This document shows positions 18,471 to 23,374 of a stretch of DNA of 64,000 nucleotides, one piece after another. Below the pieces are notes generated by a model, which was not told the DNA's origin, made no database searches, and saw only the letters and a list, made by a program, of their open reading frames with translations. The DNA lies in contig JAETQI010000001.1 in the NCBI GenBank assembly GCA_021770755.1, positions 62,001 through 126,000 of the forward strand, written 5' to 3'. Numbering within the stretch: position 1 is the stretch's first letter; the number at the start of each line of letters is the position of its first letter. Source of the DNA: Lachnospiraceae bacterium. GTDB lineage: Bacteria; Bacillota; Clostridia; Lachnospirales; Lachnospiraceae. Both the position numbers and the translations under genes were made by a program.

Positions 18471-20357
18471 ATGAAGAAAAGTAAGAAATATTATGAGCTG
18501 CAGGCGCTCGACCTGTGGGATTTTCCTGCGCTCATCAGAAAGGCGAGGGAAATACAGGGCATCACGATGGAGGCATTGTGTAAGGATATCTGTTCATTCA
18601 GCATGATGGGAAAGATCGAGAGAGGAGAACGGCTTGCGGGTAAGGAACTTCGCGACCGCATCCTTGCAAGGCTCGGCGTGTGCAGCGACGGATACGAGAA
18701 CTTTCTCTTTTATGAGGATTATCTCGTGTGGAAGAGGAGACAGCGCATCGTGAATGCGATCGAGAAATCGGATTTTGATACAGCGGAGAAAGAGCTGGAA
18801 ATTTACGAGAAGACGAATGACGATTTCAATCTGGAGAGGCAGTTCTGCCTGGTGATGCGGGCGCAGATCATGCAGAAACGCCATGAAGATCCTGCCGTGA
18901 TCGCCGGGATCTATGAGGAGGCGGTGAAGCTGACAGTCTCTGATATCGACGACGTGTCGATCGGGGATCTCTGCCTCTCGGTGCAGGAGCTGGATATGAT
19001 ATTGGAATATGAGCGCTGCTGCAGACCGGAACGGCTGACTTCGCGGTGCGAGGAGATTCTGGCGTATATCAGCAGCGAAGTGTTCGATACGTACAGTTAT
19101 GTGAAGATCTATCCGAAGGTGATCTATTACCTGTATCTGAGTACGGCGGATTGGGACCGTGACTGGAACCGTCTGCTGATTCTTGCCAACAGAGGGATCG
19201 AACAGTTGCGGACGACAGGGAGAATGTATTATCTGTGGGAGCTGATCGAGATCAGGAGAGAAGGGCTGACATGGCTCTTGGACAGGATTGAAAATGACGG
19301 CGAGGGCAGGAAACGAAAGGCAGTCCAGAAGGTGATCGACACGATGACGGACTGGCTTGAAGCGCTTGATTTTGTGCATGATCTGTGCGGAACGCACAGA
19401 AGGATGGAGACGTCCTGCTATCTGTACCAGCAAAAGGAAGCGTACTGCATCAGCGATGTCATCCGCAGGAGACGCGAGATGCTGGGAATGACGAAGAAGG
19501 CGCTCTGCGATGGAATCTGTTCCGAAAAGACGATCGGAAGACTGGAAGCAAAGAAGACCAAACCGCAGATTGAGATCGTGAGACTGCTGTTCGAGCGGTT
19601 GAATCTGTCGGGGGAGTATCAGAGATGGCAGGTTGTGACGAAGGATGTGCGGGCGTATCCGATTGTTGATAAAATAATACGTAGTGCAAATATATGTGAA
19701 TATGAAAAAGCTAAAGAATCATTGCGAGAATTAGAAAGTTATATGGATATGCAAAATCCAATAAATAAGCAGTATAAGGAGAGGTACGAATCAAATCTGA
19801 GTTATAGACAAGGAAAGACAACCAAGAAGGATACACAAAAACAATTGCAGAACATATTGGAATATACTATACCTTATGTAGCGGCATTAAAAAGTGGGGA
19901 GAAGTATTTGACAAATGTAGAAATGCAATGTTTACTTGATATTGCAGTATATACCGGTAAATCAAGTTTGAATATTGAATTTGAGGTTCTTATTGAAATA
20001 TGTAATCAAATGGAAAAAGATGAAGGAATTCCAGAGCATATTTCAGCTTGGGAAATGATTATGATAAATGTTGCAAGTATATACGGAAATATAGGAGATT
20101 ATGACACATCAGATTCAATTAGTCTTGCAGTAATGAGAGAAAGTATTTTGTGTTATAGAATCAACATGTTGGAATTAAACATTTATAGCATTGTGTGGAA
20201 TAATGAAGAACGTAGAAAGAAAAAAGTTCCTGTACATCAGGAACTTGTAGAAGAAGAGTACTTAAAGAAATGCATTATATTGTGTCAACTCAACAAAAAT
20301 TCTTATAGAGAAAGAATAATCCGAAAAAGACTTACAGATTTGCATAATGTAACTTAG
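18471..20357 (+). CDS. Tandem-HTH regulator with helical-repeat receptor domain (RRNPP-like)
   Basis: The 628-residue protein has an XRE-type HTH at about residues 20-70, a helical region, a second XRE-type HTH at about 326-385 (ALCDGICSEKTIGRLE) and a C-terminal helical region (about 398-628) like the TPR-type receptor of PlcR/Rgg regulators. Base composition changes abruptly near 19660, just after the second HTH: the line 19561-19620 has 32 G+C of 60, the line 19681-19740 only 17 of 60. Its 3' end overlaps by four bases a facing gene for a 50-residue signal-peptide-bearing peptide. Family regulators of this shape are controlled by re-imported peptides; that role is inferred here. Two HTHs in one chain are unusual. 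Confidence 0.75.
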   Translation: MKKSKKYYELQALDLWDFPALIRKAREIQGITMEALCKDICSFSMMGKIERGERLAGKELRDRILARLGVCSDGYENFLFYEDYLVWKRRQRIVNAIEKSDFDTAEKELEIYEKTNDDFNLERQFCLVMRAQIMQKRHEDPAVIAGIYEEAVKLTVSDIDDVSIGDLCLSVQELDMILEYERCCRPERLTSRCEEILAYISSEVFDTYSYVKIYPKVIYYLYLSTADWDRDWNRLLILANRGIEQLRTTGRMYYLWELIEIRREGLTWLLDRIENDGEGRKRKAVQKVIDTMTDWLEALDFVHDLCGTHRRMETSCYLYQQKEAYCISDVIRRRREMLGMTKKALCDGICSEKTIGRLEAKKTKPQIEIVRLLFERLNLSGEYQRWQVVTKDVRAYPIVDKIIRSANICEYEKAKESLRELESYMDMQNPINKQYKERYESNLSYRQGKTTKKDTQKQLQNILEYTIPYVAALKSGEKYLTNVEMQCLLDIAVYTGKSSLNIEFEVLIEICNQMEKDEGIPEHISAWEMIMINVASIYGNIGDYDTSDSISLAVMRESILCYRINMLELNIYSIVWNNEERRKKKVPVHQELVEEEYLKKCIILCQLNKNSYRERIIRKRLTDLHNVT

Positions 20358-20506
20358 ATATAAAAATTAGTTTCAATATCTAAATCATGCATAGGGACAA
20401 TCCCATCATCATTTTGATGTGATGTTCCAGTAAATCCCGTATTTATTGTTACTGTGAGGGCAAGTAAAAATATAGCACTCATTGTTGTTTTAATTATTTT
20501 TTTCAT
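20354..20506 (-). CDS. PapR/Phr-like secreted peptide precursor (50 aa)
   Basis: This short minus-strand frame encodes 50 residues: a classic export signal (MKKIIKTTMSAIFLLALTVT), then a hydrophilic part and the C-terminal end DLDIETNFYI. AGAAGGA lies five to six bases before the ATG. Size, signal and aromatic C-terminus are like PapR, the pro-peptide of the PlcR system. It faces the tandem-HTH regulator, overlapping its stop by four bases, and shares its AT-rich composition (12 G+C of 60 in 20461-20520). I infer a quorum-sensing pheromone for that regulator; the active fragment would probably be the C-terminal 5-10 residues. Confidence 0.65.
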   Translation of the reverse strand: MKKIIKTTMSAIFLLALTVTINTGFTGTSHQNDDGIVPMHDLDIETNFYI

Positions 20507-20744
20507 TATAATCCTTCTTTCGTAAATGCATTAATTGATAAAACACATGTTGCAAATTCACTGTATCTTTGTTGAAAACATTGCATTTGCTAATATAAAA
20601 TATATTGTCAGTTGTTTCGTCTATTATAGGCGGAACAAGGTTGAGCAATTGGTTAACATACGACTCAACAATTTCATTTAACCCCAGCGGCACAACAAAA
20701 GCAATGCCCAGAGTTGTCCAAAACAAAGGGATACATTTGGACAA
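20490..20744 (-). pseudogene. Possible truncated frame upstream of the peptide gene
   Basis: A minus-strand frame of up to 84 codons ends 17 bases inside the peptide gene. The part after the palindrome (from about 20700 down) reads VVPLGLNEIVESYVNQLLNL and on to KKDYNEKNN, which looks protein-like, but the only starts (TTG 20744) lie inside the palindrome at 20701-20757. It may be the tail of a gene cut by that element. Not recognised. Confidence 0.3.
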
Positions 20745-20757
20745 CTTTGGGCATTGC
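20701..20757. repeat. Large near-perfect palindrome
   Basis: GCAATGCCCAGAGTTGTCCA (20701-20720) is mirrored at 20738-20757 with one G-U-type mismatch, around a 17-base loop. There is no T-run on either side, so it does not look like a standard terminator. The rest of the gap 20507-21021 is AT-rich up to about 20800 and holds no gene with a good ribosome site. Confidence 0.8.
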
Positions 20758-21021
20758 GAATGATGGGGGCGAATGGTATAATAAGAGCCATTAATATTAT
20801 AAAGTAACTGCTTTCAAGCGTTTTTGAGAAATCATTTCTGTCATCTGCCCATCGAGGTAAGTCGTTTTCATCATTTTGCGCGATATCAGCCAGATCCAGT
20901 TGATGCGGCACACCGCTCTTCTTTCATTTGGCAGCGGTCGTCCATGGATTTTGATATACATATGATAAAAGTTTTTTTCAAATATGCTGTAGGAATTGCC
21001 ACATCATGAAAGGGGGCAATC

Positions 21022-22293
21022 ATGAAAACTTCAAAATATTTCATTTCTGCCAGGATGGATGATTTTGTCCTGTACTACAATCTGGTCAATGATACTCTGC
21101 TCCAGCTTCCCGCCGATCGAAACGAAGGCTGCGTCGAATGCCTGCAAAACCCCAACAATACCAGATCGATCTACTGGTCAAAATTATATGAAGATAAATT
21201 TATCATCGAAGATGATTTCGACGAATTAAAAGAGATCCAGCGCAGACACTGGCGGACGGTGAACAGTGCGGACGAGCTAAATGTAACCGTGATCAGTACA
21301 TTGAGATGCAATAGCGACTGTATCTACTGTTATCAGAGAAACCTGGATTTTGAATATGCTGAGATGACGGAGGAGGATTTCGACAGACTTTATGCCTTTT
21401 TGCTGGGAGCGCCGCAGAAAAATATCCATATCAACTGGTATGGAGGCGAGCCGCTTCTGGTAAGGGATCGGATACTGAAATTCTGTGCGAAGGCAGATAA
21501 GGATAAAAAGCATACATACAGCTACTCCATCTCGACAAACGCCTCGATCTATGATGATAGATTTTTCAGAATGATGGAGCGCTACAGATTGACCAATGTG
21601 ACGGTGTCGATGGTCGGCACAGGAGAGATACACAATGGGCTGCGCCCGTCGGCGGAGTACGGATCGGACCGTGTGATCAGGAACATTATCAGCATGATGA
21701 GGCATACGAATGTAATAGTGAATCTAAATCTCTGCAAGAGCAATATCGGGAACATCATAGAAATCTTCGAAGAACTTTCAGGATACAGACATTCATCACT
21801 TTCTTTTTCCTTTAGCCGTATCGTTAGCTATGAACATAGGCCATGCGCGGAGATTGAGCTGGACGTCGACACGTATATGCAACATGTGATCAGGCTGGCG
21901 AACTGGGCGCTGGATCATCAGTTCCGCGTCAGCGATATGAGTTGTTTTCAAAATTTGGGTGTGTACTGTGGCGCTTATGCGAGGAATAATTATGTGGTTG
22001 GTCCCGGACTATACCTGTATCAGTGCGATCGCTCCTACGATCCGGAGGATTCCTTTGCGCAGATCGTCGATGGCGCCCTGCGTTATCAGCCAAACGGCAT
22101 TGGATGCGGGAACACGGAGCTTTGTCTGGATCCATACAAAGTGGACGAGTGCAATGCCTGCAGGCTGCTGCCGTACTGCAACGGCGGCTGTGATTATCTG
22201 AGAAAGATCGGAAAGAGTGCGTGCCCGCCGGAGAAAAATTATCTGGAGGAATATCTGAAACTGTATTACAGGATATTCTACGAGAGACGGTGA
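21022..22293 (+). CDS. Radical SAM/SPASM enzyme, RiPP-maturase-like
   Basis: The 423-residue protein has the radical SAM cluster motif C96-x3-C100-x2-C103 (TLRCNSDCIYCYQ), the SAM-binding GGEP (WYGGEPLL) and a C-terminal SPASM region with many cysteines (CGAYARN, YQCDRSY, ECNACRLLPYCNGGC). The N-terminal 85 residues could hold a peptide-binding part. SPASM enzymes of this size usually modify ribosomal peptides or mature sulfatases. AAAGGGGGC is four bases before ATG. Its base composition is host-like (29 G+C of 60 in 21061-21120), unlike the peptide cassette just upstream. No convincing precursor peptide is adjacent. Confidence 0.85.
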   Translation: MKTSKYFISARMDDFVLYYNLVNDTLLQLPADRNEGCVECLQNPNNTRSIYWSKLYEDKFIIEDDFDELKEIQRRHWRTVNSADELNVTVISTLRCNSDCIYCYQRNLDFEYAEMTEEDFDRLYAFLLGAPQKNIHINWYGGEPLLVRDRILKFCAKADKDKKHTYSYSISTNASIYDDRFFRMMERYRLTNVTVSMVGTGEIHNGLRPSAEYGSDRVIRNIISMMRHTNVIVNLNLCKSNIGNIIEIFEELSGYRHSSLSFSFSRIVSYEHRPCAEIELDVDTYMQHVIRLANWALDHQFRVSDMSCFQNLGVYCGAYARNNYVVGPGLYLYQCDRSYDPEDSFAQIVDGALRYQPNGIGCGNTELCLDPYKVDECNACRLLPYCNGGCDYLRKIGKSACPPEKNYLEEYLKLYYRIFYERR

Positions 22294-22985: not shown

Positions 22986-23168
22986 ATGTTGGCAATGGCT
23001 GATAAAATGACAAAGAATACACACGATATTGCTTATTATGCAAAAGATAGCAGGTTAACGGAGCCGTCAGATGGCATCAGATATGAATGGCGTGAAATGA
23101 TTGAGTTTTCAAAAGAACTGGGCAGACCGCTTACAGATGAAGAGGCAGAGGAATTCCGGATCAAATAA
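22986..23168 (+). CDS. Small acidic protein next to the GNAT-like gene (60 aa)
   Basis: The 60-residue protein starts at ATG 22986 with AGGTGG five bases upstream (a GTG at 22977 is also in frame but overlaps the ribosome site). It ends GRPLTDEEAEEFRIK. It lies ten bases after the GNAT-like gene and before a terminator, so the two form a small cassette, which could be a toxin-antitoxin-like pair. No family recognised. Confidence 0.55.
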   Translation: MLAMADKMTKNTHDIAYYAKDSRLTEPSDGIRYEWREMIEFSKELGRPLTDEEAEEFRIK

Positions 23169-23180
23169 CAGGAAGGGGAA

Positions 23181-23203
23181 GCAGGGGTAAGTCCCTGCTT
23201 TTT
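23181..23203 (+). terminator. Terminator of the GNAT cassette
   Basis: GCAGGG (23181-23186) pairs with CCCTGC (23193-23198) and is followed by TTTTT. The dispersed repeat unit starts within and right after the T-run. Confidence 0.8.
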
Positions 23204-23257
23204 ATGCACAGCCCCGTGCAGATGAAATATGCCGCTAAGGAGGCGCACGGGTCGCGC
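23203..23257. repeat. Dispersed repeat, full copy 1 of a tandem pair
   Basis: The unit 23206-23257 runs from GCACAGCCCCGTGCAG to CACGGGTCGCGC. It can fold: CCCGTGC pairs with GCACGGG around an inner CCGC-TAA-GG helix. It matches the second copy at 23273-23324 over 52 bases with one difference. Confidence 0.85.
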
Positions 23258-23272
23258 GCGAGTAACTCGATT

Positions 23273-23324
23273 GCACAGCCCCGTGCAGATGAAATATGCC
23301 GCTAAGGCGGCGCACGGGTCGCGC
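23273..23324. repeat. Dispersed repeat, full copy 2 of a tandem pair
   Basis: A 52-base copy of the unit at 23206-23257, offset by 67 bases, with a single difference (GGCGGC instead of GGAGGC) that restores full pairing of its inner helix. It lies in the leader of the response regulator gene. Confidence 0.85.
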
Positions 23325-23374
23325 ACAGGCAGGGGAGAAAGCCATGTCCGACTCGATGAAAAAGGAGCGTTTTG

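Follow-up and report, generated by a model that had tools for sequence, protein, structure and literature searches.

Why does a bacterial regulator with two helix-turn-helix (HTH) domains lie tail to tail with, and overlap, the gene of a small, apparently exported peptide? The arrangement occurs in a 64,000-nucleotide stretch of Lachnospiraceae bacterium DNA (NCBI GenBank assembly GCA_021770755.1, contig JAETQI010000001.1, positions 62,001 to 126,000), which we call the window and number from its first letter. An earlier note on this DNA had described a 628-aa tandem-HTH regulator and a facing 50-codon gene for a putatively exported peptide; both are confirmed, and their stop codons share 20354-20357, a tail-to-tail overlap of 4 bp. 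As it also reported, the peptide gene has a ribosome site, which reads AGAAGGA, and its product ends in ETNFYI. This product, MKKIIKTTMSAIFLLALTVTINTGFTGTSHQNDDGIVPMHDLDIETNFYI, has a basic and hydrophobic N-terminus resembling an export signal and a polar tail. The main point of our analysis is that, judging from comparisons among relatives, the sensor half of the regulator and the tail of the peptide are exchanged together.

The genus of the window's own genome (G000, 4.7 Mb) contains 14 orthologous loci and one more in G357, 15 in all. Over residues 1-388 of the regulator, the other orthologues are 71-97% identical to those of G000, G014, and G012. Over residues 395-628 they are mostly 44-56% identical to the same three, with higher values for G000/G014 (84%) and G012/G015a (65%). 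Trees built from the N-terminal half (N-half) and the C-terminal half (C-half) of this orthologous group, OG1, reject each other in the approximately unbiased (AU) test, with p values of 1.6e-6 and 1.7e-23. The half trees of a paralogue group, OG2, conflict too (AU p 6.7e-5 and 0.0017, 11 sequences; L029 is omitted because its N-terminus is cut by the contig).

In one pair of species, the change can be followed from end to end. The N-half tree places G014 beside G017 as its sister, with 97% amino acid identity in that half and rounded identities of 99% for metK and 100% for murA. Between their C-halves, in contrast, identity is 50%, and G014 instead reaches 84% with the C-half of the window's regulator. 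At the DNA level, identity between the two is 97.7% as far as codon ~385, drops to 68% in the 795 bp that follow, and recovers to 93% in the 330 bp after that; the proportion of synonymous differences (pS) is 0.07 outside this tract and 0.65 inside it. Because the tract ends within the peptide gene, G014 has a signal sequence like that of G017 followed by a last 12 residues that are those of the window peptide. Selection on protein sequence does not explain the synonymous jump; from these alignments, a tract of ~795 bp with the sensor and the peptide tail has been replaced in this pair.

The identity step at residue ~386 might instead reflect fast diversifying selection on the sensor, with no exchange of a pheromone cassette. 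The proportion of nonsynonymous differences in the C-half is indeed high among species, and synonymous sites are near saturation in most pairs, so that those pairs do not discriminate between the two readings. Where synonymous sites are readable, however, pS jumps as well: besides G014/G017, the identity steps of G002/G005 and G015a/G015b fall in the same 90-bp window, with pS climbing from 0.32 to 0.67 in the first pair and from 0.48 to 0.66 in the second, the downstream limits being unmapped in both (the G002 contig ends, and G015b has no peptide). Pairs that share a tail have no comparable step (pS 0.59 and 0.53 for G000/G014; 0.42 and 0.53 for G032/G034). The return to more than 90% identity beyond the G014/G017 tract and the conflict between the half trees likewise speak against selection. 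For G014/G017 this explanation is largely refuted, and as an account of the step in general we consider it extremely unlikely.

Exchange of sensor and tail as a unit is also reflected in how distances co-vary across the group. In Mantel tests, tail distance tracks the distance between C-halves (r 0.76, p 1e-4; n=13) but not that between N-halves (r 0.01, p 0.43), and with identical-tail pairs reduced to one each the correlation of tail with C-half is 0.71 (n=11). When the receptor is divided into 40-residue windows, the correlation with the tail stays within ~0.1 of zero to residue 370, reaches 0.68-0.70 at residues 391-460, and is 0.76 at 541-580; it does not simply rise toward the peptide, being 0.70 at 421-460 and 0.43 at 571-610. 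The signal region of the peptide behaves in the opposite way: its partial correlation is 0.84 with the N-half (p 1e-4) and, once the N-half is given, -0.06 with the C-half (p 0.68; n=12). The sensor and the last 11 residues of the peptide thus share one history, and the N-half and the signal sequence another.

The pairing of regulator and peptide is conserved well beyond the window. In the genus, the orthologues sit behind metK in the 12 loci whose contig extends far enough, and in G357. A facing peptide is present at 13 of the 15 loci (G000, G014, G012, G017, G033, G005, G003, G015a, G021, G022, G034, G032, and G002); that of G032 lies 226 bp behind the regulator stop, and that of G002 is split by a contig end, with the tail on one contig and the signal start on another. 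The window's own genome encodes five further homologues of the regulator, and a facing exported-peptide open reading frame (ORF) accompanies five of the six, the window's included, the sixth being a 360-aa fragment. Among the homologous regulators with a facing peptide is L003. A single criterion, which was fixed only after the family had been seen, identifies a facing signal-peptide ORF for 30 of 38 homologous regulators and for 7 of 202 control genes. Five of those seven controls are themselves regulators of the same family present in the control set, and three of the eight misses (L010, L026, and L031) are at contig ends. The low control rate rules out a chance ORF as the origin of the peptide gene, as does G014, whose tail is identical despite two synonymous substitutions over the last 12 codons.

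Across the taxonomic family, 21 of 299 genomes (own genome counted) have a relative at E<=1e-40. With a slightly wider criterion than that applied to the 38 regulators above, 27 loci of other genera yielded 13 with a facing peptide, spread over ten genera; seven of the 27 are also among the 38. Homologues with a facing signal-peptide gene, a check set beforehand, were thus found in the genus, in the window's own genome, and in ten other genera. The 14 named records with relatives are all labelled Lachnospiraceae and include Lachnospiraceae bacterium A4 and IMSAGC_011, both of which we take to be of mouse gut origin. Plasmids and phages are rejected as a main home of the regulator: plasmids gave no match, and phages a single unannotated, phage-labelled 6-kb scaffold at 22% identity. 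This scaffold, MT837868.1 ("Bacteriophage sp.", human faeces), encodes the 627-aa relative at L164:1876-3759, no facing peptide was seen in it, and it may be a bacterial fragment.

What kind of receptor faces the peptide? In Pfam, two HTH_3 stretches appear at a lax limit, and the second alone (residues 331-383) passes E 0.01. The first, weak in Pfam, is recovered by the family profile, which matches PrgX, ComR, and Rgg2 at residues 14-123 (Rgg2 over residues 15-123 at E 2e-5); residues 331-620 of the profile match residues 10-282 of PlcR at E 1.5e-9, covering the HTH and the tetratricopeptide repeats (TPR). AlphaFold2 models, each built from 37 sequences, have a predicted local distance difference test score (pLDDT) of 89.4 and a predicted TM-score (pTM) of 0.88 for the full protein, and 90.4 and 0.88 for residues 320-628. 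The full model is helical throughout, in the order HTH, repeats, HTH, repeats. In Foldseek, the PlcR-PapR7-DNA complex (3u3w) ranks first for both models (TMq 0.57 for the C-half), and ranks 1-30 for the C-half are filled by PlcR, ComR, Rgg2/Rgg3, and two further bacterial transcriptional regulators. The C-terminal part, whose TPR-like nature was likewise a check set beforehand, is therefore an RRNPP/TPR-type domain closest to PlcR by both profile and Foldseek.

The two halves of the regulator, each of ~310 aa, are homologous to each other (hhalign probability 99.6% over 242 columns). The earlier note had read the protein as one receptor with two HTH domains; both HTH domains are present, but the extra one is not a spare HTH: the receptor is a single chain of two HTH-TPR units that are homologous to each other, and other genera have two-gene counterparts. 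In G312, G253 (two loci), and G260, the halves are encoded by two adjacent, slightly overlapping genes for proteins of 308-319 aa, and all eight genes score best with the profile of their own half. Two of these four loci (L115, L116, L117, and L119) have a facing peptide, which lies behind the C-half gene in G312 and in one G253 locus; no facing peptide was seen in the other G253 locus nor in G260. We infer that the one-chain receptor arose by fusion of a two-gene pair, rather than the two-gene form by splitting, and the receptor may act as a single-chain dimer.

Between the peptide gene and a divergent radical S-adenosylmethionine (SAM) gene, at 20702-20756, lies an inverted repeat, CAATGCCCARAG..GTCCAAA. 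The own genome holds one full copy, which rules out a genome-wide repeat as its source, and two further single arms only at a distance of 3 mismatches. Of 38 genomes in the genus, 14 are known carriers of the regulator, and 13 of these have the paired repeat. None of the 24 others has it, G358 among them being unscreened for the regulator and G028 having one lone arm; the remaining carrier, G021, has degenerate arms only. The arms are nearly unchanged under different peptide tails and stand 37 bp apart, start to start, in every pair, with a loop that varies. The outer end of the right arm is the TTG of a -35-like hexamer with 3 to 5 of 6 consensus bases (14 copies). A -10-like box lies 17-18 bp past the right arm in all 14, reading TATAAT or one change from it in ten and two changes from it in four, the -10 having been picked among 14-21 bp spacers, a choice that favours a match.

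A related half-site, CAAGGGACAGARTTG.CCAA, recurs among the paralogues, where 12 of 15 loci have it on the peptide side and five have it upstream of the regulator. The own genome has five exact half-sites, four of them beside family regulators (three on the peptide side, one upstream) and the fifth ~5 kb from L004 on the same contig; of four more at one mismatch, three are near L004. The loci with a half-site upstream of the regulator itself are L002, L004, L022, L023, and L024, a position that suggests autoregulation of the receptor. Away from regulators, paralogue-type half-sites in G000 occur at C98:46627 (exact) and C118:33278 (one mismatch) and are possible members of a regulon.

Since the arms of the repeat could pair almost completely, and a short T-run follows them on the minus strand in several species, the repeat might be a transcribed hairpin, that is, an attenuator or terminator, and not an operator. 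The region, however, has no terminator-like or Rfam match, and the start-to-start spacing is constant despite the variable loop. Some arm changes go uncompensated, for example in G014, G017, and G022. The TATAAT-like box past the arm on one side in every copy and the related half-site in paralogues are further points against a hairpin, which we consider unlikely. The repeat is probably the operator of the regulators, to which we assign it putatively.

The radical SAM gene beyond the repeat adjoins the locus in G000, G012, G017, G033, G005, G015b, G021, and G357, eight of the 12 OG1 loci with enough sequence. It also stands at the starts of contigs that are probably the continuations of G002 and G015a; G014 offers too little sequence. 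It is not beside G003, G022, G032, and G034. We regard it as a candidate target that is inessential to the circuit. The enzyme raises the question of whether the facing ORF encodes a secreted peptide with another job, such as a small bacteriocin or a radical SAM substrate, that the regulator controls without sensing. Besides the frequency of the enzyme at OG1 loci, such a role would be consistent with a radical SAM/SPASM gene and an ATP-binding cassette (ABC) exporter beside the distant paralogue L006, and with the fact that no separate precursor gene was recognised near the window-type enzyme or near that of L006, the facing peptide excepted at L006. Yet the four genomes without the enzyme keep the peptide, the tail co-varies and is exchanged with the sensor half, which a plain product would not need, and the fold of the receptor is that of peptide-sensing regulators. 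We judge a product that is not sensed to be very unlikely. The L006 locus itself (L051:8004-13226), in which the paralogue and its facing peptide are followed by the radical SAM/SPASM peptide-maturase-like gene and the exporter, is possibly a quorum-controlled locus for a ribosomally synthesised and post-translationally modified peptide (RiPP).

Taken together, the pair is very probably a PlcR/RRNPP-type peptide-pheromone circuit in which one chain forms a double receptor and the specificity cassette runs across the tail-to-tail junction; the RRNPP assignment of the earlier note is supported by the conserved facing peptides and the PlcR-type C-terminal domain. Export, trimming, re-import, binding, the sign of regulation, and the target genes are parts of the circuit that we infer. 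The signal sequence would direct export of the 50-aa propeptide, and trimming would then leave a short peptide from within its last ~11 residues, a stretch that starts with SD or HD. This peptide would be re-imported by an oligopeptide permease (genes of PF00496, a broad family, occur at three places) and would bind the C-terminal TPR domain, residues ~386-628. Both HTH domains would then act on the repeat, which abuts the divergent promoter whose -35 runs into it, so that the signal would regulate the gene that encodes it and probably also the neighbouring radical SAM gene. PlcR is an activator, and a weak -10 on the peptide side would fit activation. Transcription of one gene may also interfere with that of the other, as the earlier note proposed.

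Several observations weigh against this reading. A tract with both ends mapped comes from one species pair only. Linkage inside one exchanged tract would give the correlation of tail and sensor even without binding, so the correlation shows co-inheritance and is only consistent with binding of the tail by the sensor. A simple correlation (r 0.36, p 0.004) also links the signal region to the C-half, and it vanishes once the N-half is allowed for. Tails in OG2 correlate with the C-half (r 0.55) and with the N-half (r 0.61) alike, and modular exchange is therefore clear only in OG1. The N-terminus of the peptide resembles NCBIfam Phr_nterm at E 0.0015 and 18.9 bits, under the cut-off of 25. On the receptor side, TM-scores to PlcR are moderate with a large root-mean-square deviation, eukaryotic subunits of the anaphase-promoting complex (APC/C), which are TPR proteins, are among the top Foldseek matches of the full model, and no Pfam TPR model matches the window protein, its 37 relatives having scattered Pfam TPR matches only and one RNPP_C. 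As to promoters, the best -10 on the peptide side is weak (4-5 of 6 matches), with a spacing that varies and is 17 bp in 8 of 14, and a general scan of the region gave 3 sites against 3.9 expected from shuffles; with no excess there, only the conservation of the promoter-like arrangement counts. Finally, by the criterion used, 14 of the 27 loci of other genera have no facing peptide, nor is one recognisable at G015b and G357, where regulator and repeat are kept.

A more specific proposal concerns gene order. Because the genes lie tail to tail, the sensor-coding end and the message-coding end form one block of ~0.8 kb. A single recombination step could replace this block between conserved flanks, the HTH domains on one side and the signal sequence on the other, changing the pherotype while the DNA target stays. 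We give about an even chance to the full scenario: that the receptor is a single-chain pseudo-dimer derived from a two-gene pair, that the tail-to-tail order has been kept because one tract swaps sensor and message between homology arms in the second HTH and the signal sequence, leaving promoter and export signal unchanged, and that the convergent order is an adaptation for language switching in gut Lachnospiraceae.

The features of the locus are collected in Table 1.

Table 1. Features of the regulator-peptide locus in window coordinates. Limits of the candidate cassette are those of the G014/G017 replacement tract projected onto the window.
Feature	Position	Strand	Basis
Regulator of 628 aa: tandem HTH-TPR units of RRNPP type, homologous to each other, on a single chain	18471..20357	+	ORF, Pfam, model, profiles, hhalign
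First HTH, ~residues 17-70	18519..18680	+	Family profile matches HTH of PrgX, ComR, Rgg2
First helical (TPR-like) repeat block, ~residues 81-306	18711..19388	+	AlphaFold2 model; homology to C-half by hhalign
Second HTH, ~residues 327-383, end of conserved part	19449..19619	+	Pfam HTH_3, family profile
Candidate exchangeable specificity cassette: sensor (residue 386 to end) and 3' part of peptide gene	19626..20414	.	Identity steps, synonymous differences; low G+C
Predicted 50-codon secreted propeptide, Phr/PapR-like layout	20354..20506	-	ORF, Phr_nterm resemblance, conserved in orthologues
Propeptide signal region, codons 1-30; history that of regulator N-half	20417..20506	-	Distance correlations
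Variable C-terminal tail HDLDIETNFYI, proposed to contain mature pheromone	20357..20389	-	Tail correlations; identical in G014
Inverted repeat left arm, candidate operator	20702..20722	.	Repeat conservation across genus
Inverted repeat right arm, candidate operator	20736..20756	.	Repeat conservation across genus
Promoter-like TTGCGA-17-TATAAT facing radical SAM gene; -35 begins within right arm	20754..20782	+	Arrangement recurs in relatives
Radical SAM/SPASM peptide-maturase-like gene, divergent from peptide gene, possible target	21022..22293	+	Library matches, neighbourhood comparison

Base composition, on which the earlier note is silent, also changes within the regulator: G+C drops from ~0.52 to 0.30 near 19650 and stays low past the end of the peptide gene. 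Over window positions 19650-20600, which hold the sensor part and the peptide gene, it is ~0.30, compared with ~0.5 in the N-half. A similar drop is seen in most OG1 and OG2 members and not in L019, L020, and L054-L055, which hints at low-GC donors or at a different regime within the cassette. The G015b and G357 loci (L042 and L150) also keep the radical SAM gene along with regulator and repeat and may be eavesdroppers or broken loci. Near-identical short ORF segments (e.g. ..PVQMKYAAK..) at window positions 23036-23345 recur behind L004 and are probably a dispersed DNA repeat.

If the proposed circuit is right, gut Lachnospiraceae gain a candidate peptide language of their own; the window's genome has five facing peptides that differ in their tails. 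The replaced tract would be a natural experiment on how a receptor and its ligand switch specificity jointly, with no non-communicating intermediate, and for which the block, its limits, and the recipient are located. It suggests a functional reason for the convergent, overlapping gene order. The single-chain double receptor would also be useful to dissect the role of each half of an RRNPP dimer.

How does the locus compare with known systems? PlcR is a single HTH-TPR unit that acts as a homodimer on the PlcR box, and PapR is a short exported propeptide encoded beside it. Receptors of the Rgg/SHP and TprA/PhrA systems are single units too, and the TprA/PhrA genes are convergent. The locus shares with RRNPP systems a directly adjacent small propeptide gene, an HTH (HTH_3; matches to PrgX, ComR, and Rgg2), and a TPR-type domain of the RRNPP fold, whereas its doubled architecture and its length of 628 aa misfit the usual definition; the operational length filter in the accessible part of PMC10075063 is about 250-500 aa. 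RRNPP_detector, as described there, filters for receptors of that length with a TPR model match; it returns candidate families like ours in pairing a receptor with an adjacent small secreted propeptide, but these filters would exclude a 628-aa receptor without a Pfam TPR match, and the two-gene versions (308-319 aa) might pass the length filter. Among the matches listed in our literature search, from which subscription journals were mostly outside, none dealt with a doubled HTH-TPR receptor or with this regulator family in Lachnospiraceae, and neither did the accessible text of PMC9765709 and PMC12700828; no paper joining RRNPP, Lachnospiraceae, and quorum sensing was found in the literature searched.

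The convergent peptide gene, which the earlier note had called unusual, has a precedent. In Group III Rgg/SHP systems of streptococci, receptor and peptide genes are transcribed convergently and overlap at the end of the former, according to the part of PMC13361665 available, and convergent overlap by itself is therefore not new; the title of that paper also ties Rgg/SHP to radical SAM RiPPs. The likeness is one of geometry only. SHPs, short hydrophobic peptides that are exported by PptAB (PMC10075063, available part), differ from those of the window family, whose propeptides of ~50 aa combine a long signal region with a separate polar tail, and our C-half is closest to PlcR, though the N-half profile matches Rgg2. 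TprA/PhrA of Streptococcus pneumoniae, placed in the PlcR branch of RRNPP in the accessible parts of PMC13361665 and PMC10075063, resembles the window system as a quorum-sensing regulator with a cognate Phr-type peptide, a comparison by description only.

In PlcR-PapR of the Bacillus cereus group, an HTH and TPR receptor likewise lies next to a short exported propeptide, and the C-half matches PlcR over both HTH and TPR. PapR7 is ADLPFEF (PMC6568020, accessible part), which may be set beside tails such as SDIPGPTGFEY in the window family. Unlike PlcR-PapR, the window system has two HTH-TPR units in a 628-aa chain, a convergent overlapping peptide gene, and, as candidate operator, an inverted repeat longer than the PlcR box. 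For the exchange itself, the parallel is ComRS of Streptococcus suis, in which comR and comS alleles are mutually specific and jointly transferable and pherotype switching by gene replacement has been proposed (PMC4072589, as far as its available text goes). Those alleles were exchanged experimentally, whereas the tracts described here appear to be natural and, in the mapped case, have one boundary within each gene.

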